DNA of 64,000 nucleotides from Schizochytrium sp. TIO01. Taxonomy: Eukaryota > Sar > Bigyra > Thraustochytrida > Thraustochytriidae. The notes below the pieces were generated by a model, which saw only the letters and a list, made by a program, of their open reading frames with translations, ran no database searches and was not told the origin of the DNA. The DNA lies in contig SMSO01000014.1 of assembly GCA_004764695.1 (NCBI GenBank), positions 6,500,029 to 6,564,028 on the forward strand. Direction: 5' to 3'. Position numbers and translations under genes: made by a program. Positions 17-45,038 of this stretch are shown here, piece by piece. Numbering within the stretch: the first letter of the stretch is position 1; each line of letters starts with the position of its first letter.

Positions 17-3000
17 ATGAACTCGCACAATCATAATCCATCGGTGGCAAGCCGCTTTGATGCCTTGTGTCGGAATGTGCTTAAGGGCGTGGAAAAGATC
101 TTGCTAGACTCCGTCAATGGCCTTCGCCCCGGACAGAATAAGGGGTGGTGCATTGCACTACTTGTTATTCAGTCAGCCCTTGTCATTGTGACATGTTTGT
201 ATTGGCTTGTATCATTGTCACGGGGAACAGGTTTTTCGCCGAATAGTTTTGGCTGTGAGGGATCTAGTGACAACTTGGCGAAGCAAGCTTTCCCTGAGCT
301 TGGTTGCACCCCGCCAATAGATGTCGTCTATACGTGGGTCAATGGGTCTGATCCCGTGTGGCAGAGTAAACTCGACTATTATAAGGAGCTAGCAAAGGAA
401 AAGGAGCTTGCTGCCGCAGCTGCAAGCATGACCAGCTCAAATGAAAGTAGCTCAATTGGAGATTCAGAAGAGACTGAACCAGGTTCCTTAAAGGACCTGT
501 ATCAACAAATTGATGACCTCGAGAAAGACCTGAAGCATTTTCAAAATCTGCATGAGGAAATTACGGCAGGCCAATCTCCCGAAATCAACTCCAGCACAGA
601 TATGGCTAGTGGGGAAAGGCGAAGGTTATATGACTACGAATATCGTGACCCGTACGAGGACCATGATCATGGTAGAGAACGTGATATGGCAAGCCATCAC
701 AAGCACCAGGAGTCAGTGGATGACTATCTGCAAGCTAATTTGGCATACGACGAGATCTTACAGCAGGAATATATAAAACAAACTGCGAAAGCAAAGGAGG
801 GCGCATCAGATGGGGCAGCGCAGACTGGCGTGCCTGACGATGAGGAAGAGGCAGAAGGTGCTGGATTTACAAATGTAGAATGGGCATCTACTGCAAATCG
901 CTTTCGCGATAATGAGGAGCTCAGGTTTTCCCTTCGCTCACTCGATAAATATGCTCCATGGGTTCGACACATTTATATCGTGACAGATAATCAAGTCCCA
1001 TCCTGGCTTGATTTGAGCCACCCTCGTTTAACAGTAGTCCCTCACACAGACATTTTCCCCAATCGCTCGCATTTGCCAACCTTTAGTTCACCTGCTATTG
1101 AGTCGCATCTACACAGAATTCCGGGTCTTTCAAAGCAGTTTGTCTACTTCAATGACGATGTTATGCTTGGAGCACCAGTATGGCCCAGCGACTTTTATGA
1201 TCGTGCGCTTGGTCAACGTATCTTTCTTGCTTGGGGGCTTCCACAATGCCATGAAGGCTGTGTTGCTGCGTGGATTGGAGATGGCTTCTGCGACTCCGCA
1301 TGCAACGTTGAAGCTTGTGGCTTTGACGAAGGCGATTGCGCTGGAGAGAATTCTCGAATGCCGAATCATGGAGACGTAGAGCCAGACATGTTTGATTCAA
1401 TGAGCTCGAGTGATTTTGGACAAGACCGTTTCAATAGCTACCTGTTATCGCGTGAGGAATGCGTCGATGGCTGTCGTAAGGAGTATCTCTCTGACGGTTT
1501 TTGCGACCGAGAGTGTGCACACCCAGAGTGTGGCTGGGACGGTGTTGATTGCTTCAAAACAAATGGCCCTCCGTCTCGCGATATGCCATTTGTTATGGTA
1601 GATTCTATTGATCTCTCGCTAAATCACGTCGAACACTTAGAACTCCCCTTTGGTGTTCGTGCAGCCAGCATAGACTTATCTAACATAGAAGATGAGCCAA
1701 GACTCACAATCGAGTCTGCTCACACTGATTCGACTGGAATTGTTACCAAGGCAACTTTCCATCAACCCACAAAAACTCTAAATCTTGTCTTTGCTAATCC
1801 AGGTTCTACCCTTTTGCATCACCATGTATGGGGAGGCACGCCACTTGACGTTTATACTCATGGCGAAAACGTTTTAGAGTTTTTTTCAGAGGTCAGCTCC
1901 GACCAGTATGTGACTGGGGGCTGTTTGCCGAAACTAGGGTGCGAGCGGTTCGATACCTTGGAACTTGCCATGCAAGTCTGTCTTGCCCGTGGAGATCTTT
2001 GTGGAGGAATTACAAGTTCGAACCGTCATGCGCCGCCTGTAACCTATGAATTGCGTCATGGAAAAACATTGTCTCCCTCATATACATACGAGCAGTCCTG
2101 GATGCGAACAACTGATTTTGAGGGGAGTATCGCGGAAATTGACGGCAGCGAGGTTGTGGCCCCAGAACCAGTGGAAGTAACCTTGGTTATGTCCGATGGA
2201 TCAGTGTATAGATTTGACATTACTAGTGCGCTTCCATCTCAGCCAGCGAAGCCAGGGAATGACAAGGGGGACATGAAGCGCGCTGAACCTAATAAAGACA
2301 CAGATAAAGATTCAGAGAAAGCAGCAACCCCTGAGTTTCGACGAGTGCTAAGCTCGGATCACGGTCGTGCAGAATTCTTTTCCCGTCGACTTTCTGCAAC
2401 AACTCATGAGAATCGAACCTTTGAAAAGTCTGTCTTTGCAAAACAAGCTCACTTGAAGGAGCTGATGCTACAAAGAATCAATGCTTTCCGCGCGCGCGTC
2501 GAGTCTTTGACAAGCTCCGTTGAAACTGACACAAACTCTACAAGCACTTTCTCAACCTCGCCGCAGAGGAGATCATTGCTTGACACCTTTGCGAGCTCGT
2601 TGCTACATGTAAATCGTGTCTATAACGAGGCGTTTGGTAAAGAAGAACGCAAGGTTATCGCACACATGCCTCACTATCTTGATATTGAACAGATTGAAGC
2701 TATGGAATCTCGATTTGCGGAAGAATTTGAAAAAACGTCACAAAATAGATTCCGAAGCACTGATGACATGCAGTTTGCCTTTGCATACATGTACTGGATT
2801 GTACACCAAGGTGACCAACCATTATATCCCCCCAGGGAGTACTTTAATAAGGAGCTTGATACTGATGGAGATGGTGTTCTGTCACCAAACGAGCTCATTA
2901 CGCTAGCTGCTATGGCTGTTGGGAGTGATGCTGGCCATACCTCTACCCGCGAGATGCTGCTTGAAATGGTTCGGTGTGTTGACCCGACGATTCTGCAATC

Positions 3001-3616
3001 TGCTGAGCCCCCCGCACACGAAGAAGAGACATACGATGGGTCCTCAGATTTTGAGCCACGGGAGGAGAATCGTGACCATCTTGTACGCTTTACCTTTGAA
3101 CAGATCATGAATTGTGAGGTCACACGCGAAAGCTTGTTAAAAAAGACACCACGCAGGCCGACCCATCGAATTGTTGAGGAGGACGAAGCACCTGTAGCGT
3201 TTCAAATGATTGGGGATGACTTTAATGATGCAGCTGGCCAACTTGATTCGATTCGGGCGCGCAAGTCTAAATTTATTTGTGTCAATGACAACATGAATAA
3301 TCCGCCAATAGAGGTTCTTCAGGAATTGCGCAACTTCCAGCTAAACTTATTTCCTCACAAATCTCAATTTGAGCTTCCTCTAGATCGCCGAAATCGCTTT
3401 TTGTATCTCGATGAATATGAGTCGCACGTCGATTACTATCGTTGGTACTCCCGGGGGGTATTTCTACTTCTCTTTTGTGTTCTTTGCATTTTTATTGTCC
3501 CGAGTAGAGACAGTGGGGAGAGTGACGCAAATGGCGAGGCATCAGGTAGAGCTGGCGACACTGAGATTGAAATTGATGAGGAGCTTGCCCAGGAAATCCA
3601 ATCAAAGGAAGAATAG
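17..3616 (+). CDS. GNPTAB: N-acetylglucosamine-1-phosphotransferase alpha/beta precursor homologue (Stealth family)
   Basis: In animals GNPTAB transfers GlcNAc-1-phosphate from UDP-GlcNAc to mannose on lysosomal hydrolases in the Golgi, the first step of the mannose-6-phosphate tag. This 1199-residue frame shows the family's order. A transmembrane helix lies at about 43-67 and Stealth CR1 (IDVVYTWVNGSDPVW) at 101-115. A long low-complexity spacer is followed by CR2 from about 295 (RFRDNEELRFSLRSL). Two Notch/LNR modules lie near 411-441 and 482-512, each with six Cys. CR3 is near 900-930 (DDMQFAFAYMYW), an EF-hand loop near 948 (DTDGDGVLSPNE), CR4 near 1084 (FICVNDNM, then SQFELP) and a second membrane helix near 1147-1162. 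Length and order match animal GNPTAB (about 1250 residues), unlike short bacterial Stealth capsule enzymes. There is no stop in frame between base 1 and the ATG, so the N-terminus could extend beyond the window. Confidence 0.93.
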   Translation: MNSHNHNPSVASRFDALCRNVLKGVEKILLDSVNGLRPGQNKGWCIALLVIQSALVIVTCLYWLVSLSRGTGFSPNSFGCEGSSDNLAKQAFPELGCTPPIDVVYTWVNGSDPVWQSKLDYYKELAKEKELAAAAASMTSSNESSSIGDSEETEPGSLKDLYQQIDDLEKDLKHFQNLHEEITAGQSPEINSSTDMASGERRRLYDYEYRDPYEDHDHGRERDMASHHKHQESVDDYLQANLAYDEILQQEYIKQTAKAKEGASDGAAQTGVPDDEEEAEGAGFTNVEWASTANRFRDNEELRFSLRSLDKYAPWVRHIYIVTDNQVPSWLDLSHPRLTVVPHTDIFPNRSHLPTFSSPAIESHLHRIPGLSKQFVYFNDDVMLGAPVWPSDFYDRALGQRIFLAWGLPQCHEGCVAAWIGDGFCDSACNVEACGFDEGDCAGENSRMPNHGDVEPDMFDSMSSSDFGQDRFNSYLLSREECVDGCRKEYLSDGFCDRECAHPECGWDGVDCFKTNGPPSRDMPFVMVDSIDLSLNHVEHLELPFGVRAASIDLSNIEDEPRLTIESAHTDSTGIVTKATFHQPTKTLNLVFANPGSTLLHHHVWGGTPLDVYTHGENVLEFFSEVSSDQYVTGGCLPKLGCERFDTLELAMQVCLARGDLCGGITSSNRHAPPVTYELRHGKTLSPSYTYEQSWMRTTDFEGSIAEIDGSEVVAPEPVEVTLVMSDGSVYRFDITSALPSQPAKPGNDKGDMKRAEPNKDTDKDSEKAATPEFRRVLSSDHGRAEFFSRRLSATTHENRTFEKSVFAKQAHLKELMLQRINAFRARVESLTSSVETDTNSTSTFSTSPQRRSLLDTFASSLLHVNRVYNEAFGKEERKVIAHMPHYLDIEQIEAMESRFAEEFEKTSQNRFRSTDDMQFAFAYMYWIVHQGDQPLYPPREYFNKELDTDGDGVLSPNELITLAAMAVGSDAGHTSTREMLLEMVRCVDPTILQSAEPPAHEEETYDGSSDFEPREENRDHLVRFTFEQIMNCEVTRESLLKKTPRRPTHRIVEEDEAPVAFQMIGDDFNDAAGQLDSIRARKSKFICVNDNMNNPPIEVLQELRNFQLNLFPHKSQFELPLDRRNRFLYLDEYESHVDYYRWYSRGVFLLLFCVLCIFIVPSRDSGESDANGEASGRAGDTEIEIDEELAQEIQSKEE

Positions 3617-8883: not shown

Positions 8884-9850
8884 CATACGTACGTAGGTAC
8901 ATATGTATACACATGCATATAGTATAGATTAACAACATGTATTATTTTCACTTTTATTAGTTTTTATTAGTTTGATTAGTCTCTACTCTAAATTGTTTCT
9001 TTCTTTTCTTCCTTTCTTTTAAAGTGTAATGATCTGAATACTATCTGTTTAATTTTCTCGTTTCGATTGCATAGGTACCTGCTGAAGAGAACCTGGTAGA
9101 ATCAACCGACGGCTATGGCCCTATCAACTTCGCATATCTTCCGAAGTACACTCAGCTTGCCTGATCGCTGCCATCACGCGAACTCTTGGTGGCATGTCTC
9201 TCAAAGCTGCCGCTCTGACGGTATTCGTGCGGGGACATAGAAATCCGTTGCCTAGGTGTGCGAGAGTCCCCGCATTGTTAACCTTCAAACACCAGATACC
9301 ATAAGACCTGTGCACACCTTGTGGGGCGCGGACTGTACCAGAGTTGGACTTGCGACGCTTGTTCATCAATGTAAAAGAAGAGACTGGAAACCAAAGCGTG
9401 TGAGCGATGGATTTTTTAATGAAATAAATGAACTTTTAAGTTGGGAGAAAATAGAGACTAGTGGAAAGCGCATAAGATTACAGAAGTGCAGAAACAAGTT
9501 GTCCTGCCGTGTTCGCTGCGAGCGACGGCATACAAGTCTGCGCTCTGGCCCTGAAAGGCAGGCGTGCAGAGTTGTGACGCAGCAACGGAGCGTGCGGAGA
9601 GCTCTTCATGCGTCGGAGCTATCACTGATCAACTATTATCTGGCTTGTTTCGGTAGCAAAGCTGGTCGAGGTGCTTCAGCGTTGTTTGCGAGTTTCACGC
9701 GCTCAGACACAGTTAGCTGGCGACAGAGTTCGCTAGGCAGCTCACGCGCTCGCTTGCTCGCCATTTGTCCTGAAAAGCAGGTAGCGTAGTCGAACTAGCG
9801 CCTTTTGTACACAGTTTGATCATAAACCGTGTGCCATAGTGTTTGTTGTG

Positions 9851-9852
<2 letters not shown>

Positions 9853-9888
<36 letters not shown>
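9853..9888. repeat. TGC/CAG trinucleotide repeat, 12 units
   Basis: Twelve perfect TGC units lie about 310 bases upstream of the PLC-like start codon. On the minus strand they read as CAG/GCA/AGC and create an artificial poly-Ser frame. The repeat is probably in the 5' leader or promoter of the downstream gene. Confidence 0.92.
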
Positions 9889-10197
9889 GTAGTTCATTCT
9901 CAAAAGAGAGTGCTCCATTTTTTTCTTGTGCGGCGACCACGTTCAGGAGGGTCTCGACGATTTCGTTTAGGTTTGACAAGGGAGAGCAACAGGTAAACAC
10001 CCTCGAAGATCTCGTCAAGTTGAACATTATACTTTCCAGAAAGAAATCCCCTCGCAGTCGGGTACTAGTGCTTCGCGGTGCTGCATTCGCACAGAAGAAA
10101 TTACAGTGCGCGTCTCTGAAGTAGTAAGTCCCATTATTCAGGGCACAGCTCTTAGTGATCGCGTAGGCTGTAGCGAAGCTTAAGTTCGCCCCCAAGT

Positions 10198-12276
10198 ATG
10201 GGGGCGGGTGGTTCGACTGCGTCGCGAAAAGAGACCGATCTCGTGGTCCAGCGACAACCATACGAGACCAACACAAGTTATCGAATCCGTGTCAAATTCC
10301 AAACAGAAAAGCTACCCCGAGGAACATGGCAGCAAGACTTGGAGAATATGTTTGGGACGACAAGGCAGCACTTTTCTCTACAAACTATTGTAAGCAAATT
10401 TCACAGTGACCTTAATGTGAACTTATCCCCCAAAATGCTTCGTGAATTTTATGGCTTTCCAGAAGACAACATTTCTCTTAAAGACATTGCACGAGTCTAT
10501 ATGGATGTATCTTACAATCCTTCAATCGGTGCCATTTTTGCAGCATTAATTAAGGAGCGTGATCAATTGACAGAATTGATCTGGAATGAGTTTCAGACTG
10601 ATTTTCAAGGCACACCAGTAAGCCAGCTAGCAGATGTCACACAAGTTGTCCGTGATTATACAGACCTAGAGGGCCCTCCAGTTACTGCCGCACAGTTTGA
10701 AGACTTCCTTTTGAGCGAAGCCAATTCCGCTTTCGATCCTCGCCTCAATTCCCTAAGACGTTTTGATCGGCCTCTTTCAGAGTATTTTTTGCATGTGGCT
10801 AAAATCCAGGATTGCGATAACATGAGTGCCGAGGAGATGATCACTCGCTACGCAAGTTGCATACGCCGGGGTGCTCGTGTAATAGAGCTTGAATGTTGCG
10901 GTGGGGCTTCTGATGGGGAACCACGTGTGTTTGCTGACACAGTAGCAGAAGACGCGCCACGAGACGATTTACCGACGTTGAGAGACACTTTGTTGGCTAC
11001 TTTTACAGAGTGGAATGATTTTTTCAATAACCCACGTCGACCACCGATTAAGTGCATGGCAACACAGACAGAGATCAAAGCAATGCCTCTGCTTGTAGTA
11101 ATCACGGTTCAGACGTCTTGTGATGCAAAAGTACAGGTGCAGATCAAAGAAAATCTTCAGGAGGTTTTCGGAAGCAAAATAGAGAAAATTCCATTCAACG
11201 AGAATGGTTCTATTTGGTCTCCTGCTCAGCTTGACGGCCGTGTCATTGTTGTTCTCTCGCATTCAATGGTGGGAAGTCTCGATGGCGAGGGCAACCTCAC
11301 CCCAGGCCCGCCTCTTGAGAACGAATTGGTTGAGGTCGCACATCTACGTATGGTTACAGTGCATGAGATTCGACCCATTTTAGATCAGGCCAAATCCCGA
11401 AAAGATTTGCGAAGGCTTCTCCAGGGCTTAGTGCTGACATTAGCTTCTGTTGAACTTTGCGCACATATCATGGAGCTGTCTTCAATTACAGATATGCTTC
11501 TCATCCACGTTCAAACATCAAAACGAACAATTCTACAAAAGAAAGAAGGCAATCTACTACAGCGTGAAGATGACCAAGGTCGGGATCAGGATACACGTCA
11601 TGTCGTTCAGTTTAGCGAGCTCCGGCCTGGAGAAACCTGCAAGGTTGTAATGGAAGACGAGAATGTGCAAGAGATACAAAATGATGAGGTAGAGCCCTTG
11701 CGCGGTTGGAGATATGGCGCGCAAATTGTTCCTGTGAATGCTTACGGGCATGACGAAGCGTCTTTGCAAAATGCATCACTGTTTATTCAGCATGGTGGTT
11801 GCGGTTACGTCCCACGGATGCCCCGAGAGACATTTGCAGACACGAAGGGTTTCATTGATCTATATGATGATTTTTGTAACGAGTATGCACGTAGCTTGTT
11901 TGTTACCGTGCTATCAGCATGTCGCGTGCCACGCGATCAAGAGTTAACACAGCCATATTTGCGCATGTATTGTAACAACGGAACAGGTCTAAAGCAGGTA
12001 GCTATCACAAGCACCGTGGAGGACAATGGATATAACCTCATTTGGGAAGAGGACTTTGAGTTCAAGTTTCACATTAATGACCTCAATTCGGCAGCGTGCA
12101 TTTTGTTTGCTTTACACGATCGAAATCAGCTGGCCTTAGATACCTTTGCATGGGCGTCTATTCCTCTCTGGGGACTTCAGACTGGTTACCGCCGTGTTCA
12201 GATTTTTGACATGAATCATAAACCAGTCCCGGGAGCCATTTTATTTCTTCATTTTGATTGGGAGCCCGAGGAATGA
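10198..12276 (+). CDS. Catalytically dead phosphoinositide phospholipase C-like protein with N-myristoylation signal
   Basis: Active PI-PLCs cleave PIP2 to IP3 and diacylglycerol. This 692-residue protein has the PLC order: an N-terminal helical EF-hand-like region, X domain (about 188-355, starting FDRPLSEYFL), linker, Y domain (about 468-542, with WRYGAQIVPVN and GGCGYVPRMP) and a C-terminal C2 domain (about 565-690). By hand alignment with mammalian PLC-delta the active site is gone. The first catalytic His-Asn is Lys202-Ile203, the Asp of ELDCWDG is Glu232 (ELECCGG), the second His is about Ala246, the Ca-binding Glu is Gln305, and the phosphate-binding KxK lysines are missing. Only Glu230 remains. 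The N-terminus MGAGGST fits the N-myristoylation consensus (Gly2, Ser6), so the protein is probably membrane-anchored. No PH domain is visible. A scaffold or phosphoinositide-binding role, as in animal PRIP, is inference. Confidence 0.88.
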   Translation: MGAGGSTASRKETDLVVQRQPYETNTSYRIRVKFQTEKLPRGTWQQDLENMFGTTRQHFSLQTIVSKFHSDLNVNLSPKMLREFYGFPEDNISLKDIARVYMDVSYNPSIGAIFAALIKERDQLTELIWNEFQTDFQGTPVSQLADVTQVVRDYTDLEGPPVTAAQFEDFLLSEANSAFDPRLNSLRRFDRPLSEYFLHVAKIQDCDNMSAEEMITRYASCIRRGARVIELECCGGASDGEPRVFADTVAEDAPRDDLPTLRDTLLATFTEWNDFFNNPRRPPIKCMATQTEIKAMPLLVVITVQTSCDAKVQVQIKENLQEVFGSKIEKIPFNENGSIWSPAQLDGRVIVVLSHSMVGSLDGEGNLTPGPPLENELVEVAHLRMVTVHEIRPILDQAKSRKDLRRLLQGLVLTLASVELCAHIMELSSITDMLLIHVQTSKRTILQKKEGNLLQREDDQGRDQDTRHVVQFSELRPGETCKVVMEDENVQEIQNDEVEPLRGWRYGAQIVPVNAYGHDEASLQNASLFIQHGGCGYVPRMPRETFADTKGFIDLYDDFCNEYARSLFVTVLSACRVPRDQELTQPYLRMYCNNGTGLKQVAITSTVEDNGYNLIWEEDFEFKFHINDLNSAACILFALHDRNQLALDTFAWASIPLWGLQTGYRRVQIFDMNHKPVPGAILFLHFDWEPEE

Positions 12277-14327: not shown

Positions 14328-16688
14328 ATGACGGCCGACGCGGACCCCGAACCCTCGGCAAAGCGCCCTCGCGTGGATGCGGGTAGCGAAGCATCGAACC
14401 CCACTGAAAAGCTCTCCGTGGGCAGGCCAAGGTACAAGCCCGACGACCGCTCCTACAAGACAGAGGGAGGTGTAGTCGTCTCCCGCAAGGTCTTGGATAC
14501 TAGTGCGACCGTGGTGGAGGACGTTGAGAACCTCGTCGACGCCCTGGACTCGAAGCGAGGATGCATCTTTGAGTCTGCCTACGAATATCCAGGAAGGTAT
14601 GCCCGCTGGACAATGGGATTCTGCGACCCTCCCGTGTCTTTGGAGGGCTGGGGCCGTAAGTTTGCTCTCACAGCTCTCAACTCGCGCGGAAATGTCATCC
14701 TGCAAGCCCTGAGCCAGGCTGTGAAATCCTGCGAGGCAGTGGACCAAAGCTCTCTTGAGATCGAGGAGGCAAGCATCAAAGGAACGGTCAAGGAGCTTTC
14801 GAACGCAAGATTTAACGAAGAGGAGCGAAGCAAGCAAAACTCCATCTTCTCCATCGTGCGGAGCATTATTGCGAAGTGGAAAACTGAGACCGAAGTGGAC
14901 CCGCAGTTGGGATTGTACGGAGCATTTGGCTACGACCTTACGTTTCAGTTCGAGCCTGTGGAACTCAGACACAACCGTGACCCCGCCCAGAGAGACCTTG
15001 TGCTGTACCTTCCGGACTCGATCCTTGTTCATGACAAGCAAACCGCCAAGTCGTGGAGGCTTGAGTATGATTTTGAGGTGACCAAGGAAGACGGTTCCAA
15101 GATCTCCACAGAGGGACTCGCACGAGAGGGCAAGGTAGAGCCCTTCGTTCCCCAGACATCTGGAGAGGCCTCGAGGGATCACGAGCCTGGTGAGTACGCC
15201 AAGAGTGTCGAGAAAGCTCGGGAGGAATTCAAGGTTGGAAACCTCTTTGAAGTCGTCATCAGCCAGACCTTCCGTGAGCCCAGCAAAGCTAAGCCATCAG
15301 AGATTCTCCGTATGCTCCGTATCAAGAACCCTTCCCCGTACCTGTTCCAAATTAATCTTGGTTCTAACGAGTACCTTGTGGGCGCTTCTCCTGAGATGTT
15401 TGTCCGTGTGGAGAAGACATCCGATGGTATGCGTGTAGAGACATGCCCCATTTCAGGTACCATCCAGCGTGGTGAGAACGCTCTCGAAGATGCTGAGCAA
15501 ATTCGCCAGATTCTCTCTGACAAAAAGGAGGAGAGTGAGCTTACAATGTGCACAGATGTTGACCGCAATGACAAGTCTCGTATTTGCAGACAAGGTTCTG
15601 TTCAGGTCATTGGTCGCCGCCAGATCGAAAAATATTCCAAACTCATTCACACTGTGGATCACGTCGAGGGATACTTGCGTGACGGCTCCGATGGCGGCGA
15701 GGCCTTTGATGCTCTTGATGCGTTTCTGGTCCATACCTGGGCTGTCACTGTCACTGGTGCACCCAAAACTTGGGCTATCCAATTTCTTGAGCGCAATGAG
15801 CGCTCTCCTCGCTGCTGGTATGGTGGTGCTGTCGGCTTTGTAGGGTTCGACGGCAGCCTGAACACCGGTATGACTTTGCGAACAATTCGTCTCAAGGATG
15901 GTGTCTCTGAGGTGCGTGCCGGTGCCACTCTTCTCTATGACTCTGTCCCCGAGGCAGAGGAGCGTGAGACTGAACTGAAGGCATCTGCTTTCATTGAGGC
16001 TGTGCAGAACGCCCAAGCTTTTGCCAAGAGAAACACAAAGAACACGCCTCAGTCGCCCTCTGTTCAAGTTTCCACTGGCCCTACTGGTATCGGAAAGAAC
16101 GTGGTTCTCATTGATCACCAGGACTCTTTCGTGCACACATTGGCAAACTACATCCGCCAGATCGGAGCCAAGGTGTCCACTGTACGATTCGGCATTACAG
16201 AGGATGAGCTCATGGCTCTGAAGCCAGACCTTGTCGTCATGTCACCTGGACCCGGTAAGCCTTCTGACTTCAAGTGTGCCGAGACCCTTGCGATGCTAGA
16301 GAAGCTCCGCATCCCGGTCTTTGGCGTCTGCCTTGGTCTCCAGTCTATGATCGAGGCCTACGGAGGCAAACTCAGTATTCTTGACTACCCCATGCATGGA
16401 AAGCCCTCGAAGGTCAAACAGACTCATGAAGGCAAGTGGAATGTTTTTGAGGGCATCGAAGATGAGTTTACTGTGGCGAGGTATCATTCCCTTTATGCTG
16501 AGCGCGACTCTGTACTTGCCGCATCTAAATTTGACATCACCGCTCAGTTAGACGATGGAACCATTATGGCTGTGGAGCACAAGGAGCTCCCCCTCGCAGC
16601 TGTGCAGTTCCATCCTGAAAGTATTCTCACGCGCCCTGCTAATGGTCTTACAATGCTCCGCAACGCGCTTGAAAAACTCAAGTACTAA
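14328..16688 (+). CDS. Fused anthranilate synthase (TrpE-TrpG type, bacterial-like)
   Basis: Anthranilate synthase converts chorismate and glutamine to anthranilate, the first committed step of tryptophan synthesis. This 786-residue protein joins the TrpE chorismate-binding component to the TrpG glutaminase, the arrangement of alphaproteobacterial TrpE(G). After about 45 disordered residues the TrpE part runs to about residue 575. It carries EYPGRYARW (near 86), LGLYGAFGYDLTFQF, CPISGTIQRGEN, ELTMCTDVDRNDKSR and the HTWAVTVTGAPKTWA block. A linker leads to a class I amidotransferase from about 589, with nucleophile Cys668 (GVCLGLQSM) and His762-x-Glu764 (FHPES). All active residues appear intact. 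The N-terminus has PSAKRPRVD, basic but not a clear plastid or mitochondrial leader. Codons favour C or G at the third position more than the flanking DNA. Confidence 0.95.
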   Translation: MTADADPEPSAKRPRVDAGSEASNPTEKLSVGRPRYKPDDRSYKTEGGVVVSRKVLDTSATVVEDVENLVDALDSKRGCIFESAYEYPGRYARWTMGFCDPPVSLEGWGRKFALTALNSRGNVILQALSQAVKSCEAVDQSSLEIEEASIKGTVKELSNARFNEEERSKQNSIFSIVRSIIAKWKTETEVDPQLGLYGAFGYDLTFQFEPVELRHNRDPAQRDLVLYLPDSILVHDKQTAKSWRLEYDFEVTKEDGSKISTEGLAREGKVEPFVPQTSGEASRDHEPGEYAKSVEKAREEFKVGNLFEVVISQTFREPSKAKPSEILRMLRIKNPSPYLFQINLGSNEYLVGASPEMFVRVEKTSDGMRVETCPISGTIQRGENALEDAEQIRQILSDKKEESELTMCTDVDRNDKSRICRQGSVQVIGRRQIEKYSKLIHTVDHVEGYLRDGSDGGEAFDALDAFLVHTWAVTVTGAPKTWAIQFLERNERSPRCWYGGAVGFVGFDGSLNTGMTLRTIRLKDGVSEVRAGATLLYDSVPEAEERETELKASAFIEAVQNAQAFAKRNTKNTPQSPSVQVSTGPTGIGKNVVLIDHQDSFVHTLANYIRQIGAKVSTVRFGITEDELMALKPDLVVMSPGPGKPSDFKCAETLAMLEKLRIPVFGVCLGLQSMIEAYGGKLSILDYPMHGKPSKVKQTHEGKWNVFEGIEDEFTVARYHSLYAERDSVLAASKFDITAQLDDGTIMAVEHKELPLAAVQFHPESILTRPANGLTMLRNALEKLKY

Positions 16689-18384: not shown

Positions 18385-21300
18385 ATGTCATCAATAAAGA
18401 AGAATCTCATGCATCACCAAATGAGACTCCTCTACGTCAAGTTACTGTGGACGGCTAGCCTGAATGCTGCCTTAATCCAAGCCCAGCAAGTCTCGCTGAA
18501 GACTCAGCTAGTTCCTGATGCAAGTGCTTATTTCTCTAAGGCACCGGGCTGCATGGCTCTAGGCGAATACTCACATGAGCTTGATTTTATTAGAGAAGAA
18601 CCAGCAACAACTCCGCAAGAATGTTGGCAAGCTTGTGCAGATAGTTATGAATCCTCATATCTCCGTGGCGTATACTTTAAAACTAATTATGAAGGCGAGT
18701 ATGCTTATGCAGGTGCATCGGCATACTACTACGGTTATACTTGCTATAGTTCCTATGGATGCAAAAGTGAATATGACTGGTATAATGGAATCGGAACAGT
18801 GCGACCAAATTCATGGATCGAATTACGGGTGTTTCCTTGCTATGACATTTCTTTATATGACAATGATGGGAGTGAATCTAATATAAATGTACCTGCTTCG
18901 AATGAGTTTCAAAATGTGTTAGGTTCATCGTTAGAGCAAATGGATACGATAGAGATGTTCTGGTATCCTTCAGCTGGTTACATTTGTACTCTCGGCTCTA
19001 GTGCGCCCTCCAATTTTTTAGAAGCATGTGCCTCCTGGGAGTTCCATGAACAGGATGGGACATGCAGGTTGTATCAGGGCTCCACATCTTTAGGAAGTAT
19101 AGTTAACAATAACTTGGTGAATGGTACAATCGTATCTGGCGATCTGTCTTGTCAGAATGATTTTGATACTTCCTCAGTTCCCCGAAGGTTTGCCAGGTTT
19201 TACGAGGAACGAGGATGTCTTCAATATGGCGTGCGAGCACCAAACTACGATCTAGCAAAGTATAATGACATCCCTGATCCCCATGCATGTAGACGTCTCT
19301 GTCAGGAAAACTCAGAATGTGTTCTCATCAGATATATGACTAATCCAAGTGCTGCACCAAATTGTCTTCTCAAATCTGCTGGAGCGATGGCCAACTGGTT
19401 AACAGATTCTAGCGGGTATCTTGGGACTCGTGACTGCCATACATGCCTGGATGGGTTTTACATACAAAACCAAGGAGTCCCTGACAGATAGTTGTTATAT
19501 CTGCGATAGCGGATATTATTGCCCCCTCGGAAATCATATACCATGCCCAGGAGGAAGCTATTGTGTTGCTGAAGGTCTTACGGAGCCTATCCTTGCAGAC
19601 CAAGATAATCAATGTTCCTTGACCCAAAGTGGAGTTGCATGCCAGCATCAGGTATGTCGGGACAGTATACTTGGCCTCAAATTGCTTCAATTAGAGTATC
19701 AAACCCCAGATGCTTTTAATTTTACATTATACGAAGCTGGGGTGGAGTTTCTTGGAGTACAGCAAAATATAGAAGAGACTTTCACCGGCGAATTACAACT
19801 TTCGCACACATTTCAATATGCGCTAGCTATCAACTGGTATATGGCTCCACCTACATACGAAGCTAGATACGTCATTGATGGCCAGGAAATAGGGTGGTAT
19901 TTGTTGGATCCAAAATGAGGTAGGTATAGATTGCCTTAACATGGACCAACATTACATCACAACAGATCTGAATAACCTAGTCACGCAAATGCCTGTTGGA
20001 ACATCGTTTGACTTTTGCATAAATATTCTATGGATGTTCCATTGGAGACCCCAAGACTGGGAGTTGTCAGACTTTGGTTCTGAATCGCAGATGCCAGAAG
20101 TCAAAGTCTGCAAAAAAAATTTAACGATACACTTTCATAGCAAGATCAATTTTCTTATTACTACTGTAGATGGACACACTACGCAAGAGGAGGTTTCTGT
20201 TGTTTACAAGACCTATACACCAACAACAGGTTATACTTCACATACTTCTAATTCAAGTGATGCTGATGGTCGCATTTCACAAGAGATTTTTGATCATGGA
20301 GCTGACATGTACTTACAAATCTCACTGCAATCAGCATCGAAAGTTGGCGTTAACACTGACATTCGTGTTTGTCCACCCACGGCGTCATTCGATATTTGTA
20401 ATCACGAGACTGCAATTCCGTTCCCGTACGAAACGGTGCTCACCCACCTGCTTGCCACCCGAGTGCGCCTCGTGGATGTCTATAGCTTGACAATTGCCGG
20501 TACTATTGTTATGGCAGTCGATCAAACTTCTCCTGTCTCTGAACATTGGTGTGGCAAAGCCGAAGTAAAGGTCATAGCTCGAAGTGTTCGTACTGGTCTT
20601 ATATTCTCTCAATCTATTACAGATAGTGAGGGGGGCTTCACCCTCACTGTTCCACGTGATACCGATGTTAAACTGGAAGTAGAGTACGCAGACCATTTAT
20701 TTGAAGCGGCCTCTAGCAACGATACAGTAACAGCTGCACTTCTTGGGAGCGGCATTCAGGTTTCTACAAACCTAGATCAAATCATCATACATGATGTTAA
20801 GACACAGCAGCTTTCATTCTCTACATATATCACAGCGTGCCAGAATTTTCCGGACCAGGTGAAAATTACCCTCACCTATGAAGCTTGTGCTAATAAGCAT
20901 ATTGTTCTCACACCGTCTGAGATATATTCGGAGTGGGCATTGCCCGCAGCATCTTATACCTTCAGTATTGAATACCCCACACTACCACAAATGCGAGATG
21001 CCTTCGAGGCAACATACCCAAACAATACTTTGAGTCGATTCATTGATATGCGTGAGCACAACCAAACTATCGAAGTGATATACAACCCACAACCCAACAT
21101 TTCAATCACTACAACGAGTCAAGTAGGCGATAAGCAGGAACACAGTAGCACCACCTCATTGCTGTTCGATATCATGCTTGAAGGTTCAAGGAATGTGGAC
21201 TTTTACATTACAGCCTCACAACAATACGTGAACGAAAAATTAGAGGGTAGATATTTAGAATGGTGTTATTGCGTTCCTGAAGACAATAGAACGACAGCTA

Positions 21301-24300
21301 CCATGTTCAGTACACTGGCTTCTGATTACGCTCCTGAAGTTGGGCTTGTTTCATCTGTTTTGTGCTCTGACCAGATGCCATGCAGCCTTAACTTTAGCAC
21401 TGTACCCTCGTACAATACAACATCCGCATACTCTTTCATACAACATTCATTATATGTCGCCCCCCCACAGATATCGACAAATGAGACTTTTCCTACTTAC
21501 AAGGAACTGACTGATTACGTTAAAGAGGTTCGTATAAACGTACGGAATGACAGGTTCTGGCCTCAAGGTTTCAATACAACCCTTCGTGTATTAGTGTTGG
21601 GTTCGAATGCCCTTGACCTGAGTGAGTCTGTCTTACTCACAACTCCAGAGGTTCTACCATTGTTCTATCTCTATGCGCCACCTATTGTAGGGGTAGCAAA
21701 TACTGAAGAATTTGCACATGCTCACAGCAGGGCCACTTTGGAAGGCGCGTTTTTGATTCAAAGGACTATTAGTTCTGTACTTCCGTTTGTGCTTCGCGAT
21801 CGTGAGCAGGCGCCTACAATACAAGCATCTGCAACTTTTGAATCACTTTCTCTTGAGGTAGATATAAACGGGTTTAATATTACAACTTTGCAAGCAGATT
21901 TAGCAGTAGTCAATGATGAGGTCGTGTTACTCACTGATCCAGTGAATTTTACATTACAAACAACATCAGAGGGTGAAGATATGGTTCTTCTACTTGTGAG
22001 CAAAACTAGTATTATTTCAACTTCAACTCTGACTTATAACTACACAACAAATTCTCTGGAGACATCTTCATCAATATCATGGAACTCAAGAAACCACTCT
22101 GTTATTTTACGATCTCGAAGTGAGTGTGAATTACAAGTGAACAAACTTGAAACTCTCATGAACTTATATACGCGCCAGCCAGAACTCTTCGATGAAGACT
22201 CCTCGGAGAACTTAGGAGAGTTTATGATTCGTGCAAAGTACGAACAAGACGAATGGCTCAACCTCTTGGACCACTGGGATAGTGATAAACGTACTGCACG
22301 GCAGTATCCCTTACATATGACAAGAGAGACTGCTTCAGATAGTTCTCAAGAAAAAACCAGCTCCAGCCAACTAACGCTGAGTTCTGAAGATGAAATCTAC
22401 ATTGAAGACTCAGTCCTCATTTCCAGCGAAACAAGGTTTGCTGATTATGAGTCGTTGCTAAACCTGGGATATCAAAACATTAACCTTGCTCTGTCACCAG
22501 ACATCTCCGCACTGGGTTATTTCATTCCAAGATCAGGTCTAAATAGTTCGGACGAGAGAGAAGGTCTCGTTGAGGTTCTACGACGGAGATCAACAGTAGA
22601 CTTTGTCAACGCGAGTACCGATATAGCGTCACAGGTGTTGTTCAGGTCAGAGCTGTTTCTGCCTAATGGAGGAAACAATAACACGCTTTGTGTTGAGATT
22701 TTTCAGTCGCCTTACTCAGGCTCGCATGTTTATGACGTATGTGGTGGTCGTACAAGCTGTCCGCATATTTCAGGTACAGATGCAATTGAAGACTTTGAGA
22801 TTTATTTCAATGAGTCATCGGAAAGCCTTTTAGTTGAAGATTCAGGTGAAATTTCACTCTATATCGATGCAACTGCCATGTCATTAGAGAATTCTAGCAG
22901 CTTGGATTTGGTAATCTCATTGGATGTTGCTGAAAACAACTCCTCCGATATACGCTATGGGATAGTAACTGAAAGTTTCGACCGTCCTCTTGCGCTTTCA
23001 GTAGCATCAGGAACACGCGCCCTGATTTCTATCAATTATCAGCGTCTCGACCCTAATGTTCGATTTGCAAGGGCGCTCATGCGAGTTACTTCAGCTTGTG
23101 ACCCAAATATTGAGAAACAGTTGCAGATTGACCTAAATTGGGTATCTGTATGCCCATTGCTTGAATGGATGGGTAGCTTGTCAAATTATGATGCGAATTG
23201 GTTTGTGTCAACGTCAGCTCCTGTTCTGCAGATTGAGTATGTACAAAAAGTAACTGGGGGAATTCGCGATTTTGTGGAGTCTCAACAATCATTGTGGGGG
23301 GCAACTTATGATAGCACAAATGGTCGTGGCGAATGGATAAAGCTAAATGATATTGTCGCTAGTGAATCCACGTCGAAAATTGAAGTCTCTGGGGAGTCAC
23401 TTCTCACTAAATTCGGAGCTGGACAGGTTGTACTGGAACTTCGATCAAGCTGTATGAATGACGGAGAAGTTATCGGGGTAAGATACTCTGGTGAGCGAAT
23501 AGGTACGATTGATTTTGAAAGACCATCAGTTCTAACTTGGGCAGCTAGTAGTGGGTTTCGTAAGCCTGTACTGTCATTCCCAGTTGCGAAGTTTCGTTTC
23601 AACGAGCCGATAGACTGTTCAGCTCTGCAGCTGAGCGCTAGAGTATATAGTCTGGACGAAGACCGCTCACTGAATGCAGTGGTGTCCTGTTCATCACATT
23701 TGTACGAGATTGGCGTTGTTGTGTCTCTACCTCGTAACTCAAGTGATATGTTGTGGTGGAGTGAAGCTGACGCTCATATCGAGCTAATGGGGGTCCAGGA
23801 TCTTTGGGGGAACACCTGGCTTGAGAATAGTATAGTTTCCGATGGAACTAACATGACTAAAGGCCGTCGCTTGGAAGATGCTAGCATGACTCACGGAATC
23901 CGATTTCCCTCATTGGTGAATAGCGAGGGTGACGAACCTATTTTCGAGTGGGAAGTAGCTGACAGTTCGGATGTATTTGACATGGTGGAAGTGGCGATAC
24001 AAAAACATTTCTCCAGTAGCGGCGTCCAGTACACACAAATTTATGCCGAGCTAGACTTGCTAGACGAATACGATAGTTATGAAGCCCTCCCAAGGAATGA
24101 TACAAATAATACCGCTACGGATGACCGTCCAGGATCATCAGATGAGGGTGGAGAGGAGAACTCAGAAGACACTGACTACTCTGAAGATGCTGATGATGGC
24201 TCCCTGCCATCAGGATCGAAGGAGTCAACCCAGAGAAGTGCATATCAGCACAGCTGGCATTACGTTTTCAGTACTCTTTGGATTGATACTGGTAAGTGGG

Positions 24301-24609
24301 TTGATTTATGGATTAATATTGCGTCGTCGGAAGTTGCGCCTTGGTTTGAATCGAGTTGCCCCTATTCCGAAGCGAGCTGGGTTTGCAGAAGAGGGGCAAG
24401 CAAATACAGACCCAGCGAAAGAAAATGACGGGGGAAATGGCAAAAGAAAGATTACCGAGGATCGTGCTGCAGACCTTACAGCTGAGAAGATCGCTTCTAG
24501 CTCACATCAGAAAATGGTTAACATGGCATCTCGCTTCAAAGACGGGGTAAATGTTGTCCGTACCTCTGCAGCAATTCCGGCAAAGTTAATTTCAGGAAAG
24601 AAGAAATAA
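18385..24609 (+). CDS. Giant secreted/type I membrane protein with Cys-rich, GCC2/GCC3-like and carboxypeptidase-regulatory-like modules; three +1 frame breaks
   Basis: Three successive plus-strand frames plus a fourth overlapping one read as one protein of about 2070 residues. The first (18385-19491) begins with a signal peptide, best from the third Met (MRLLYVKLLWTASLNAALIQ). It has Cys-rich modules with PAN/apple-like spacing, such as ACRRLCQENSECVLIRY. The second (to 19918) continues a GCC2/GCC3 ephrin-receptor-like repeat: CHTC, then CYICDSGYYCPLG and CPGGSYC. The third, about 1500 codons, has many N-glycosylation sites and a regulatory-like beta domain (TDSEGGFTLTVPRDTDVKL). It ends in an acidic Ser-rich juxtamembrane stretch. 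The last frame gives a membrane helix (ITFSVLFGLILVSGLIYGLI) followed by RRRK and a short cytoplasmic tail ending SGKKK. Each junction needs a +1 shift. The protein is probably a surface receptor or adhesin with unknown ligand. Recoding, one missed intron, assembly insertions or recent decay could explain the breaks. Confidence 0.75.
19486..19492 (+). other. Frame break 1: +1 shift at AGA TAG T
   Basis: The upstream frame ends ...GVPDR then TAG. Skipping one base at this stop continues directly as SCYICDSGYYCPLG, completing the Cys-x-x-Cys repeat begun in the upstream frame. The overlap between the frames is only about 70 bases and leaves no room for a normal intron. There is no homopolymer at the site. 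Confidence 0.7.
19910..19918 (+). other. Frame break 2: +1 shift at CCA AAA TGA G
   Basis: The second frame ends ...YLLDPK then TGA. The +1 frame is open from here and continues EVGIDCLN into the 1495-codon frame, upstream of its first ATG. The site contains an A4 run, so a miscounted A is a simple alternative to recoding. No GT-AG pair of suitable length and phase was found around it. Confidence 0.7.
24140..24256 (+). other. Frame break 3 just before the membrane helix
   Basis: The acidic Ser-rich stretch reads well in one frame up to about 24245. The membrane helix starting at 24256 reads in the +1 frame. A possible GT-AG intron at 24148-24253 (106 bases, ending CACAG) would restore the phase but has a weak donor (GTGGAG) and would remove the acidic stretch. 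A single-base insertion is the other explanation. Confidence 0.6.
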
Positions 24610-32595: not shown

Positions 32596-33693
32596 TTAGA
32601 TACTGCTTGCCGCTGCAGAGTCCTTCAAGGTTGCAATGTCAATAACAAAGCGATAGCGCACATCAGATTCGTGCATGCGCTTATATGCTTCGTCAACGTA
32701 ATCTGCAGAAATTAACTCTGTCTGCGGGAGGACATTGTGCTCAGCGCAAAAATTGAGCATCTCCTGAGTCTCAGCAATGCCACCAATGATGCTGCCAGCC
32801 AGAGTTTTACGGCCACGAAGCAGAGAGAAAGATCTGAGGTCCAGGGGCTCTGGAACACCGCCGACGAGGATCATCTTGCCGTTGTTTCGCAAAAGGGCCA
32901 GGTAAGCTGCAAGGTCGTGCTTCGCAGAAACTGTGTCGAGAATGAAATCAAAGGTAGCAGTGGCATTCTTCATCTCCTCCTCATTCTTTACATCAACATA
33001 TTCGTGAGCTCCAAGTGCAAGAGCATCGTCCTTCTTAGCCGTGCCACGCGAGAGAACAGTTACGTGAGCTCCCATAGCGACACCAAACTTGACAGCCATG
33101 TGGCCAAGACCACCGAGACCCGCTACGGCATACCTCATACCCTTTTCGAGTCCAAAGTAACGGAGCGGAGAGTAAGTTGTAATACCAGCACACAGAAGCG
33201 GCGCAGCAGCAGCAAAGTCAAGACTGTCCGGCACGTGAAGAACGAAGGCCTCGTCACAAACGTAGCCAGTGGAGTAGCCACCGTAGGTCTTGCCACCAAT
33301 TTCTGGGTGGTGCTTGTACTTGTAGCGGCCGTTGTAGGTGAGAACACCGCCGTGCTCACAAAGCTGTTCGTAGCCGTCCTGGCAGCTCTCGCAGTCACGG
33401 CATGAGTCCACCAGGCAGCCAATGCCAGCCTTGTCGCCGACCTTGAACTTGGTCACTTCGCTGCCAACTGCGCGGATAATGCCAACGATTTCATGACCAG
33501 GGCACAGACCAGGTCCTTCAAAATCGCACGGTCCCCATTCCCCGCGGTACTTGTGCACATCACTGCCACAAATTCCGGCATACTTGATCTCAATATCCAC
33601 GTCCTTCGGGCCCAAGTCGCGGCGCTCGAACTCCTTCTTCACAAACGGCTTATGAAAGTCCTCCGCAAACAAACCAGTCTCAGTGTGCGGCAT
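32596..33693 (-). CDS. CAD-type zinc alcohol dehydrogenase, copy A
   Basis: This 365-residue enzyme belongs to the cinnamyl-alcohol-dehydrogenase/YahK/ADH6 branch of medium-chain dehydrogenases, which usually reduce aldehydes with NADPH. The catalytic zinc ligands are present (Cys in AGICGSDVH, His-Glu in CPGHEIVG, Cys in PLLCAGITTYSPL). So are four structural-zinc Cys (DSCRDCESCQDGYEQLC) and the Rossmann motif GLGGLGHMAVK. SRGTAKK after the second strand favours NADPH. It is the most divergent of the five minus-strand copies, with its own N-terminus (MPHTETGLFAEDFHKP) and a C-terminal SAAASSI extension. There is no targeting peptide or peroxisomal tail, so it is probably cytosolic. The physiological substrate cannot be read from sequence. 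Confidence 0.93.
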   Translation of the reverse strand: MPHTETGLFAEDFHKPFVKKEFERRDLGPKDVDIEIKYAGICGSDVHKYRGEWGPCDFEGPGLCPGHEIVGIIRAVGSEVTKFKVGDKAGIGCLVDSCRDCESCQDGYEQLCEHGGVLTYNGRYKYKHHPEIGGKTYGGYSTGYVCDEAFVLHVPDSLDFAAAAPLLCAGITTYSPLRYFGLEKGMRYAVAGLGGLGHMAVKFGVAMGAHVTVLSRGTAKKDDALALGAHEYVDVKNEEEMKNATATFDFILDTVSAKHDLAAYLALLRNNGKMILVGGVPEPLDLRSFSLLRGRKTLAGSIIGGIAETQEMLNFCAEHNVLPQTELISADYVDEAYKRMHESDVRYRFVIDIATLKDSAAASSI

Positions 33694-35932: not shown

Positions 35933-37018
35933 TTAAATATCCTTGAGGGAAGCTATGTCAATGACAAAACGGTAGCGGACATCAGCGGACTCCATGCGCT
36001 TATATGCCTCACCAACGTAGTCAGCGTCGATGAGCTCGACATCAGGAATAACATCATGCTCAGCACAGAAGTCAAGCATCTCCTGGGTTTCAGCGATGCC
36101 TCCGATCATGCTACCACCTAACACCTTGCGGCCCATAATCAAGCTGAAGGTCATAAGATCAAGAGGAGCGGGCACGCCACCGACCACAATGAGCTTGCCG
36201 TTGTTGTGGAGGAGACCAAGGTATGCTGCAAGGTCGTGCTTGGCAGAAATAGTATCAAGAATAAAATCAAAAGAGTTGGCAGCACTCTTCATCTCCTTCT
36301 CGTCCTTCACATCAACGTAGTCATGAGCACCAAGCTTGAGAGCATCCTCCTTCTTGGCAGTGCCACGAGAGAGAACAGTCACATTAGCACCCATGGCGAT
36401 ACCAAACTTAACAGCCATGTGTCCAAGGCCACCAAGACCTGCCACAGCAAAGTTCATACCCTTCTTCAGGCCATAGTACGCGAGCGGAGAGTAGGTAGTG
36501 ATACCTGCGCAGAGAAGAGGAGCAGCAGCAGCAAAGTCGAGGTTGTCAGGGACGTGAAGAACAAAGTCCTCGTCACATACATAGCCGGTGGAGTATCCAC
36601 CAAAAGTCTTGGCGCCCTTCTCAGGGTGGTGGTCAAACTTGTAGTGATCGTTGTAAGTCTGTACCAGGCCCTTCTCATCCTCGCAGAGCTGCTCGTAGCC
36701 ATCCTTGCAGCTGGGGCACTTACGGCAAGAGTCAACCATGCAGCCAATGCCGGCCTTGTCGCCGACCTTGAACTTAGTCACATCGCTACCGACAGCACGG
36801 ACGATGCCGACGATCTCGTGGCCGGGGCACATGCCAGGGCCGCTGAAGTCGCTGCCACCCCATTCGTTCTTGGCTTGGTGGACATCACTGGCACAGATAC
36901 CAGCGTACTTGATATCGATATCGACGTCCTTGGGTCCAAGAGCGCGGCGCTCAAACTCCTTGATTTCGAACGGACCATTAGCCTCGCTCACAAAAAGGCC
37001 ATATTCCGTGTGCGGCAT
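35933..37018 (-). CDS. CAD-type zinc alcohol dehydrogenase, copy B
   Basis: 361 residues, started at the ATG giving MPHTEYGLFVSEANGP. An ATG or near-ATG further upstream would add 35 residues with no counterpart in the paralogues. All zinc ligands are present (CASDVH, GHE, LLCAG; structural DSCRKCPSCKDGYEQLC), as are GLGGLG and the NADPH-type SRGTAKK. From about 36130 to 36960 its DNA is almost base-for-base identical to copy C, with only scattered differences (for example an AGG/ATG change near 36666). Both ends of the gene are clearly different from C. This sharp boundary pattern indicates gene conversion or a very recent partial duplication. Confidence 0.93.
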   Translation of the reverse strand: MPHTEYGLFVSEANGPFEIKEFERRALGPKDVDIDIKYAGICASDVHQAKNEWGGSDFSGPGMCPGHEIVGIVRAVGSDVTKFKVGDKAGIGCMVDSCRKCPSCKDGYEQLCEDEKGLVQTYNDHYKFDHHPEKGAKTFGGYSTGYVCDEDFVLHVPDNLDFAAAAPLLCAGITTYSPLAYYGLKKGMNFAVAGLGGLGHMAVKFGIAMGANVTVLSRGTAKKEDALKLGAHDYVDVKDEKEMKSAANSFDFILDTISAKHDLAAYLGLLHNNGKLIVVGGVPAPLDLMTFSLIMGRKVLGGSMIGGIAETQEMLDFCAEHDVIPDVELIDADYVGEAYKRMESADVRYRFVIDIASLKDI

Positions 37019-39221: not shown

Positions 39222-40304
39222 TTAGTTCTTGATGGAGGCAACATCGATGACAAAGCGGTAGCGGACATCAGCGGACTCCATGCGCTTGTATGCTTCATCA
39301 ACGTAGTCAGCATCGATGAGCTCAGTGTCAGGAATGACGTTGTGCTCCGCACAGAAGTCAAGCATCTCCTGAGTCTCGGCAATGCCACCAATAGGGCTTC
39401 CACCGATCATCTTGCGGCCCATAATCAAGCTGAAGGTCATAAGATCAAGAGGAGCGGGCACGCCACCGACCACAATGAGCTTGCCGTTGTTGTGGAGGAG
39501 ACCAAGGTATGCTGCAAGGTCGTGCTTGGCAGAAATAGTATCAAGAATAAAATCAAAAGAGTTGGCAGCACTCTTCATCTCCTTCTCGTCCTTCACATCA
39601 ACGTAGTCATGAGCACCAAGCTTGAGAGCATCCTCCTTCTTGGCAGTGCCACGAGAGAGAACAGTCACATTAGCACCCATGGCGATACCAAACTTAACAG
39701 CCATGTGTCCAAGGCCACCAAGACCTGCCACAGCAAAGTTCATACCCTTCTTCAGGCCATAGTACGCGAGCGGAGAGTAGGTAGTGATACCTGCGCAGAG
39801 AAGAGGAGCAGCAGCAGCAAAGTCGAGGTTGTCAGGGACGTGAAGAACAAAGTCCTCGTCACATACATAGCCGGTGGAGTATCCACCAAAAGTCTTGGCG
39901 CCCTTCTCAGGGTGGTGGTCAAACTTGTAGTGATCGTTGTAAGTCTGTACCATGCCCTTCTCATCCTCGCAGAGCTGCTCGTAGCCGTCCTTGCAGCTGG
40001 GGCACTTACGGCAAGAGTCAACCATGCAGCCAATGCCGGCCTTGTCGCCGACCTTGAACTTGGTCACATCGCTACCGACAGCACGGACGATGCCGACGAT
40101 CTCGTGGCCGGGGCACATGCCAGGGCCGCTGAAGTCGCTGCCACCCCACTCGTTCTTGACTTGGTGGACATCACTGGCACAGATACCAGCGTACTTGATA
40201 TCGATATCGACGTCCTTGGGTCCAAGAGCGCGGCGCTCGAACTCCTTCTTGACAAAGGGTGCACCAGCGCTCTCGGCGAAGAGACCTTGGACAGTACGGC
40301 TCAT
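39222..40304 (-). CDS. CAD-type zinc alcohol dehydrogenase, copy C
   Basis: 360 residues. The catalytic zinc ligands are Cys42, His67 and Cys170. The structural zinc ligands are Cys98, Cys101, Cys104 and Cys112. The Rossmann loop GLGGLG is at 194-199. Ser217-Arg218 and Lys222 favour NADPH. The N-terminus MSRTVQGLFAESAGAPF is shared with E and nearly with D. The central 830 bases match copy B almost exactly, while the 3' coding end (DADYVDEAYKRMESADVRYRFVID) matches copy E. The gene is therefore a mosaic within the array. It is complete and probably functional. Confidence 0.94.
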   Translation of the reverse strand: MSRTVQGLFAESAGAPFVKKEFERRALGPKDVDIDIKYAGICASDVHQVKNEWGGSDFSGPGMCPGHEIVGIVRAVGSDVTKFKVGDKAGIGCMVDSCRKCPSCKDGYEQLCEDEKGMVQTYNDHYKFDHHPEKGAKTFGGYSTGYVCDEDFVLHVPDNLDFAAAAPLLCAGITTYSPLAYYGLKKGMNFAVAGLGGLGHMAVKFGIAMGANVTVLSRGTAKKEDALKLGAHDYVDVKDEKEMKSAANSFDFILDTISAKHDLAAYLGLLHNNGKLIVVGGVPAPLDLMTFSLIMGRKMIGGSPIGGIAETQEMLDFCAEHNVIPDTELIDADYVDEAYKRMESADVRYRFVIDVASIKN

Positions 40305-43958: not shown

Positions 43959-45038
43959 TCACTCCAGGGAAGCAATGTCAATGACAAAGCGGTAACGCAC
44001 ATCAGCAGTCTCCATGCGCTTAAAAGCTCCATCGACATAGTCCGCCTCGATGAGCTCGATATCAGGAATTACGTTGTGCTCTGCGCAGAATTCAAGCATC
44101 TCCTGGGTCTCGGCAATGCCACCATTTGGGCTTCCACCGATCATCTTGCGACCAAGAATTAAACTGAATGTCAAGAGCTCAAGAGGAGCGGGCACGCCTC
44201 CAAGCACAATAAGCTTGCCATTGTTGCGAAGGAGGCTCAAGTAGGAACCAAGATCGTGCTTGGCAGAAATGGTGTCAAGGATGAAATCAAAAGAGCTGAC
44301 AGCACTCTTCATCTCCTCCTCATCCTTAATGTCAATGTAGTCATGAGCACCAAGGTCAAGTGCATCCTCCTTCTTGGCAGTGCCACGAGAGAGAACAGTC
44401 ACATTAGCACCCATGGCAACACCAAACTTAACAGCCATGTGTCCAAGGCCACCAAGACCTGCCACAGCAAAGTTCATACCCTTCTTCAGGCCATAGTACG
44501 CGAGCGGAGAGTAGGTGGTGATACCTGCGCAGAGAAGAGGAGCAGCAGCAGCAAAGTCGAGGTTGTCAGGGACGTGGAGAACAAAGTCCTCGTCACATAC
44601 ATAGCCGGTGGAGTATCCACCAAAAGTCTTGGCGCCCTTCTCAGGGTGGTGGGCGTACTTGTAGTGATCGTTGTAAGTCTGTACCATGCCCTTCTTATCC
44701 TCGCAGAGCTGCTCGTAGCCGTCCTTGCAGCTGGGGCACTCACGGCAAGAGTCAATAATACAACCAATGCCGGCTTTGTCACCGACCTGAAACTTGGTCA
44801 CATCGCTACCGATAGCGCGGACAATGCCGACGATCTCGTGGCCAGGGCACATTCCAGGGCCGCTGAAGTCGCCGACACCCCATTCGTTCTTGACTTGGTG
44901 GACATCACTGGCACAGATACCAGCGTACTTGATATCAATATCGACGTCCTTAGGACCAAGAGCGCGGCGCTCGAATTCCTTGGTGACGAAGGGTTCACCA
45001 GCGCTCTCGACGAAGAGACCTTGGACAGTACGGCTCAT
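43959..45038 (-). CDS. CAD-type zinc alcohol dehydrogenase, copy D
   Basis: 359 residues with the complete zinc and cofactor set: CASDVH, GHE, DSCRECPSCKDGYEQLC, LLCAG, GLGGLG and SRGTAKK. It resembles copy C strongly in the middle (about 44370-44700). It differs in scattered positions elsewhere, such as YAHHPEKG in place of FDHHPEKG, IDIKDEEEMKSAVSS, and a C-terminus ending IASLE. It is therefore an older paralogue than the B/C/E group. The start context CAAGATG is shared with A, B and C. Confidence 0.93.
   Translation of the reverse strand: MSRTVQGLFVESAGEPFVTKEFERRALGPKDVDIDIKYAGICASDVHQVKNEWGVGDFSGPGMCPGHEIVGIVRAIGSDVTKFQVGDKAGIGCIIDSCRECPSCKDGYEQLCEDKKGMVQTYNDHYKYAHHPEKGAKTFGGYSTGYVCDEDFVLHVPDNLDFAAAAPLLCAGITTYSPLAYYGLKKGMNFAVAGLGGLGHMAVKFGVAMGANVTVLSRGTAKKEDALDLGAHDYIDIKDEEEMKSAVSSFDFILDTISAKHDLGSYLSLLRNNGKLIVLGGVPAPLELLTFSLILGRKMIGGSPNGGIAETQEMLEFCAEHNVIPDIELIEADYVDGAFKRMETADVRYRFVIDIASLE

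Follow-up and report, generated by a model that had tools for sequence, protein, structure and literature searches.

The 64,000-nucleotide window analyzed here (Schizochytrium sp. TIO01, contig SMSO01000014.1, positions 6,500,029 to 6,564,028) contains a gene at 10198..12276 (+) that the initial annotation had interpreted as encoding a myristoylated phospholipase C (PLC) homolog with a replaced active site. The question raised by this locus is whether its product is a pseudoenzyme with a role of its own, an enzyme with an altered active site or the remnant of a PLC in decay.

Reading frame and domain make-up

The gene comprises a single, intronless exon of 692 codons, open from an ATG that is the first of the frame and presents A at -3 and G at +4. 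At this base composition, the probability of such a frame remaining open by chance is about 6e-17, and codon statistics favor it over the other five frames. Its codon bias amounts to 0.10 bits per codon, versus 0.22-0.39 in four comparison genes that were also the training set of the measure, and this weaker bias would be compatible with either a low level of expression or a relaxation of constraint. A search of the 64-Mb assembly (37 contigs) returned the gene as a single copy (G000:C13:6510226-6512301), together with three other PLCs, one on contig C30 and two on C4. A TGC/GCT trinucleotide run lies upstream of the gene, at 9850-9890.

By homology, the predicted 692-aa protein is a member of the eukaryotic-type PI-PLC superfamily, with X, Y and C2 domains in this order. 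The initial annotation had considered all three domains recognizable, and this holds for the X domain (residues 189-351; 10762..11250 (+); PF00388) and the C2 domain (11893..12204 (+); PF00168), which score 35.5 and 26.6 bits against Pfam cut-offs of 23.1 and 22. The Y domain (PF00387) lies at the threshold (27.1 vs. 28.8 with hmmscan; 29.7 in the genome search), and its C-terminal half alone is recognizable (profile positions 64-110 of 114; W504 ... QIV ... GGCGY; 11674..11814 (+)). The X, Y and C2 domains of the three other PLCs score well above the Pfam cut-offs. A phmmer search against the PDB matched PLC-gamma (2e-18), PLC-epsilon (1.2e-13) and PLC-delta1 (7e-13), and a profile HMM derived from a set of six canonical PLCs aligned residues 60-243, 297-351 and 498-687, with 121 bits in all. 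These segments cover the EF-hand region, both parts of an X domain interrupted by a mid-domain insert, the end of the Y domain and the C2 domain.

The EF-hand region (residues 60-180; 10375..10737 (+)) is degenerate, and Pfam detects no calcium loop in it, while EF-hands are recognizable in two of the three paralogs. Residue mapping indicates that the C2 domain, which is also matched in the PDB, has lost part of its calcium ligands, with Gln585 at the position of D653 and Asn643 at that of D708. The linker between the X and Y domains contains 11 acidic and 7 basic residues, versus 23 and 5 in the C30 paralog, and such a near balance is expected if autoinhibition no longer matters. Pfam searches identified no PDZ domain, and no PH domain at E-values up to 10. 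The latter result bears out the contrast drawn in the initial annotation with PRIP, an animal PLC-like protein that has a PH domain and binds through it. Single-sequence AlphaFold2 prediction yielded no usable model (pLDDT of 33.7 for the whole protein and 31.8 for the barrel).

Residues at the active site

Active-site residues were mapped over ten MAFFT alignments, using as a yardstick PLC-delta1, zeta and gamma1 and the three PLCs of this genome in which the site is intact. In rat PLC-delta1, we take the catalytic residues to be H311 and H356, the calcium ligands to be N312, E341, D343 and E390, and the substrate contacts to be K438, K440, S522, R549 and Y551. The active-site His, Asn, Glu, Asp and Arg residues are intact in all three paralogs, which carry Arg or Lys at positions 438 and 440; one of them presents Phe at the position of Y551.

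In the window protein, the ten alignments agree on two sites. At the E341/D343 calcium-ligand site (10885..10893 (+)), Glu230 is kept and Glu232 replaces Asp, and the E390-N391-H392 site reads Gln305-Thr306-Ser307 (11110..11118 (+)). The equivalent of H356 is Ala246 (10933..10935 (+)), Arg262 or a gap, but never His. The K438/K440 site corresponds to Ser354/Ser356 (11257..11265 (+)) or to a gap. The region expected to harbor R549 and Y551 (11617..11658 (+)) lacks the R-I-Y-P-x-G-x-R motif, and the equivalents of these two residues are Met485/Asp487, Glu474/Arg476 or gaps, with Arg never at the first position nor Tyr at the second. The S522 position has no reliable placement.

The assignment of the H311-N312 site, located in the HVAKI segment (His199 ... 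Lys202-Ile203; 10792..10806 (+)), depends on the alignment. The ungapped comparison pairs these residues with Lys202/Ile203 and MAFFT places a gap, whereas the HMM alignment pairs His199 with H311 after a three-residue deletion and places Val200 where Asn is expected. It is hence uncertain whether the protein has lost the first catalytic His. As judged from these alignments, E341 is the sole active-site residue kept, H311 is uncertain and the rest are replaced. Apart from this uncertainty, the residues listed in the initial annotation (Lys202, Ile203, Glu232, Ala246 and Gln305) are correct, but the list passes over both the conserved E341 and the conservative change of D343 to Glu. Even if His199 does correspond to His311, the lack of a second His, of N312, of E390 and of the phosphate ligands makes normal PLC activity very unlikely, and the protein has very probably lost catalysis.

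The N terminus and described PLC homologs

The protein begins with MGAGGSTASRK (10198..10230 (+)), a candidate N-myristoylation signal. The PROSITE pattern PS00008 encompasses Met-Gly, an allowed residue at position 3 and Ser, Thr, Ala, Gly, Cys or Asn at position 6. The MGAGGST sequence conforms to this general consensus, and an N-myristoyltransferase (NMT) gene is present in the same genome. The initial annotation had proposed that this signal takes over membrane attachment from a PH domain, in a combination that might be undescribed. The anchor itself is plausible on these grounds, but it is not a novel substitute for a PH domain. Two of the intact paralogs share the MGxxxST pattern (MGCKHSTS in the C30 protein and MGVCCSTS in one of those on C4), the third, also on C4, lacks Gly2, and all four PLC proteins of this genome lack a PH domain. 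The paralogs therefore resemble the window protein in domain order, in the absence of a PH domain and, for two of them, in the N terminus, and differ from it in their intact catalytic residues and, for the C30 copy, in an acidic X-Y linker. Both Gly2 paralogs also present Cys within positions 3-5, a typical palmitoylation site. The window protein has no Cys near Gly2, and should consequently grip the membrane less firmly than they do.

There is also precedent for this anchor in the trypanosomes. N-myristoylation has been confirmed for the Trypanosoma cruzi PI-PLC (PMC3969225), and TbPI-PLC1 presents exactly the order myristoylation-EF-X-Y-C2 (PMC10051276). Like the window protein, both combine an N-myristoylation signal with an EF-X-Y-C2 order and no PH domain, but they are active enzymes with conserved X and Y domains (PMC10051276, PMC3969225). 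A second trypanosome protein, TbPI-PLC-like, is a PLC relative with an N-terminal myristoylation consensus that does not hydrolyze PIP2 and is needed for growth (PMC10051276). It resembles the window protein in its ancestry and N terminus, but it consists only of X and PDZ domains, without EF-hand, Y or C2 (PMC10051276), whereas the window protein possesses a C2 domain and half of a Y domain.

Among full-length homologs, the animal PRIP/PLC-L proteins can be likened to the window protein in being PLC-like without PLC activity, and PRIP is reported to work through its partners (PMC4058080). PRIP retains high homology to PLC-delta1 (PMC4058080) and is hence far less divergent. Arabidopsis AtPLC8 and AtPLC9 are similar in lacking a PH domain, in carrying Y-domain substitutions and in falling outside the main clade, although their described substitutions are confined to the Y domain (PMC4122161). 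PLC homologs have been described in stramenopiles, and PLC is absent in many oomycetes (PMC4820453, PMC9694693). Searches of the open-access literature yielded no description of a PLC pseudoenzyme in thraustochytrids, oomycetes or other stramenopiles, which is weak evidence of absence.

Proposed function and age of the gene

Taken together, these data lead us to favor, with a probability of roughly 0.6, a myristoyl-tethered PLC pseudoenzyme acting as a scaffold or regulator through protein contacts at the membrane; its inactivity, myristoylation, membrane location and scaffold role are all inferred. Such a protein would derive from an old lineage of N-myristoylated, PH-less PI-PLCs with an EF-X-Y-C2 architecture, and would have kept the domain order and the Gly2 anchor while losing PIP2 hydrolysis and, most likely, tight headgroup binding as well. 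It would probably be myristoylated co-translationally and reside on cytoplasmic membranes, with C2 contacts helping an attachment that should be weaker or reversible, since no palmitoylation site lies nearby. There it might regulate membrane signaling through protein-protein contacts, and could compete or pair with the three active-type PLCs. The precedents of TbPI-PLC-like and PRIP indicate that a protein of this kind can have a cellular role.

The initial annotation had instead proposed a phosphoinositide scaffold, which, in analogy with PRIP, would bind phosphoinositides or inositol phosphates. In favor of such binding are the PLC-type domain order, the presence of a C2 domain and an inositol phosphate pull-down of TbPI-PLC-like in a study cited by PMC10051276. 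The barrel residues that would grip the phosphates are replaced, and there is no sign of another lipid site, leaving the proposal unsupported. The PH domain through which PRIP binds is likewise absent. We thus consider it unlikely, and phosphoinositide scaffolding would be possible only if binding took place outside the canonical pocket.

Less probable still is an active enzyme whose altered site, built around His199 and Glu230/Glu232, serves another substrate or chemistry. The conserved E341, the conservative replacement of D343 by Glu and the HMM placement of His199 at His311 are compatible with this idea, but the absence of His at 356, the change of E390 to Gln, the loss of the lysines and of R549/Y551, and an unrecognizable first half of the Y domain all speak against it.

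Identity of the window protein to both the same-genome paralogs and animal PLCs is only 20-24%, compared with 40-50% over the shared core among the three paralogs, and pairwise scores are 18-70 bits against 334-488 bits among the latter. A 497-column tree groups the three paralogs in a clade with 99% ultrafast bootstrap and places the window protein outside it, with a branch length of 2.6 substitutions per site. This low identity and the long external branch indicate that it is not a fresh duplicate, and the claim is limited to its being old or very fast-evolving, given possible long-branch attraction. An origin as a recent duplicate of one of the paralogs is ruled out by the bit scores and the tree, subject to the same caveat. 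Five canonical PLCs share 92 invariant positions, of which the window protein keeps 36, mainly apparently structural ones that include W504, Q509 and the GGCG loop. Searches of viral and prokaryotic contigs returned no orthologs, which is unsurprising given that the gene is eukaryotic.

A duplicate of an active PLC decaying into a pseudogene, as the active-site loss, weak codon bias and long branch might suggest, is improbable for a single-copy gene that diverged early enough to lie outside a 99%-supported clade and yet, at about 20-24% identity to any relative, is free of stops and frameshifts over its 692 codons, where unconstrained DNA would have accumulated many stops.

If the myristoyl-tethered pseudoenzyme is real in cells, the separate origins of PLC pseudoenzymes would extend beyond animals, plants and trypanosomes, and anchoring by myristate would be able to outlive catalysis, even though the known precedent for each part of the design limits the surprise. 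More tentatively, the window protein may represent a conserved labyrinthulomycete clade of full-length, myristoylated PLC pseudoenzymes that hold a signaling complex together or restrain the active PLCs, as a stramenopile counterpart of PRIP with an independent origin from a PH-less PLC. Its genomic setting comprises three PLCs with intact sites, NMT and a protein with IP3-receptor-type domains. The latter corresponds to a 3179-codon frame with RYDR_ITPR matches on the same contig (L024, L025; G000:C13:5281262-5283853), a candidate IP3-receptor-type channel. A PfaA-type polyunsaturated fatty acid synthase is also encoded in this genome, in keeping with a thraustochytrid-like organism.

Elsewhere in the window, a gene at 17-3616 (+) encodes a Stealth-type phosphotransferase with CR1-CR4 regions and Notch-like LNR repeats, resembling GlcNAc-1-phosphotransferase. 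The frame at 14328-16688 (+) encodes a fusion of chorismate-binding and glutamine amidotransferase domains, of the anthranilate or aminodeoxychorismate synthase type. An open frame of 1495 aa at 19941-24428 (+) has no Pfam match. Five genes of the zinc-type alcohol dehydrogenase family (ADH_N and ADH_zinc_N), four on the reverse strand (32596-33693, 35933-37018, 39222-40304 and 43959-45038) and one on the forward strand (55643-56788), apparently constitute a local duplication array.
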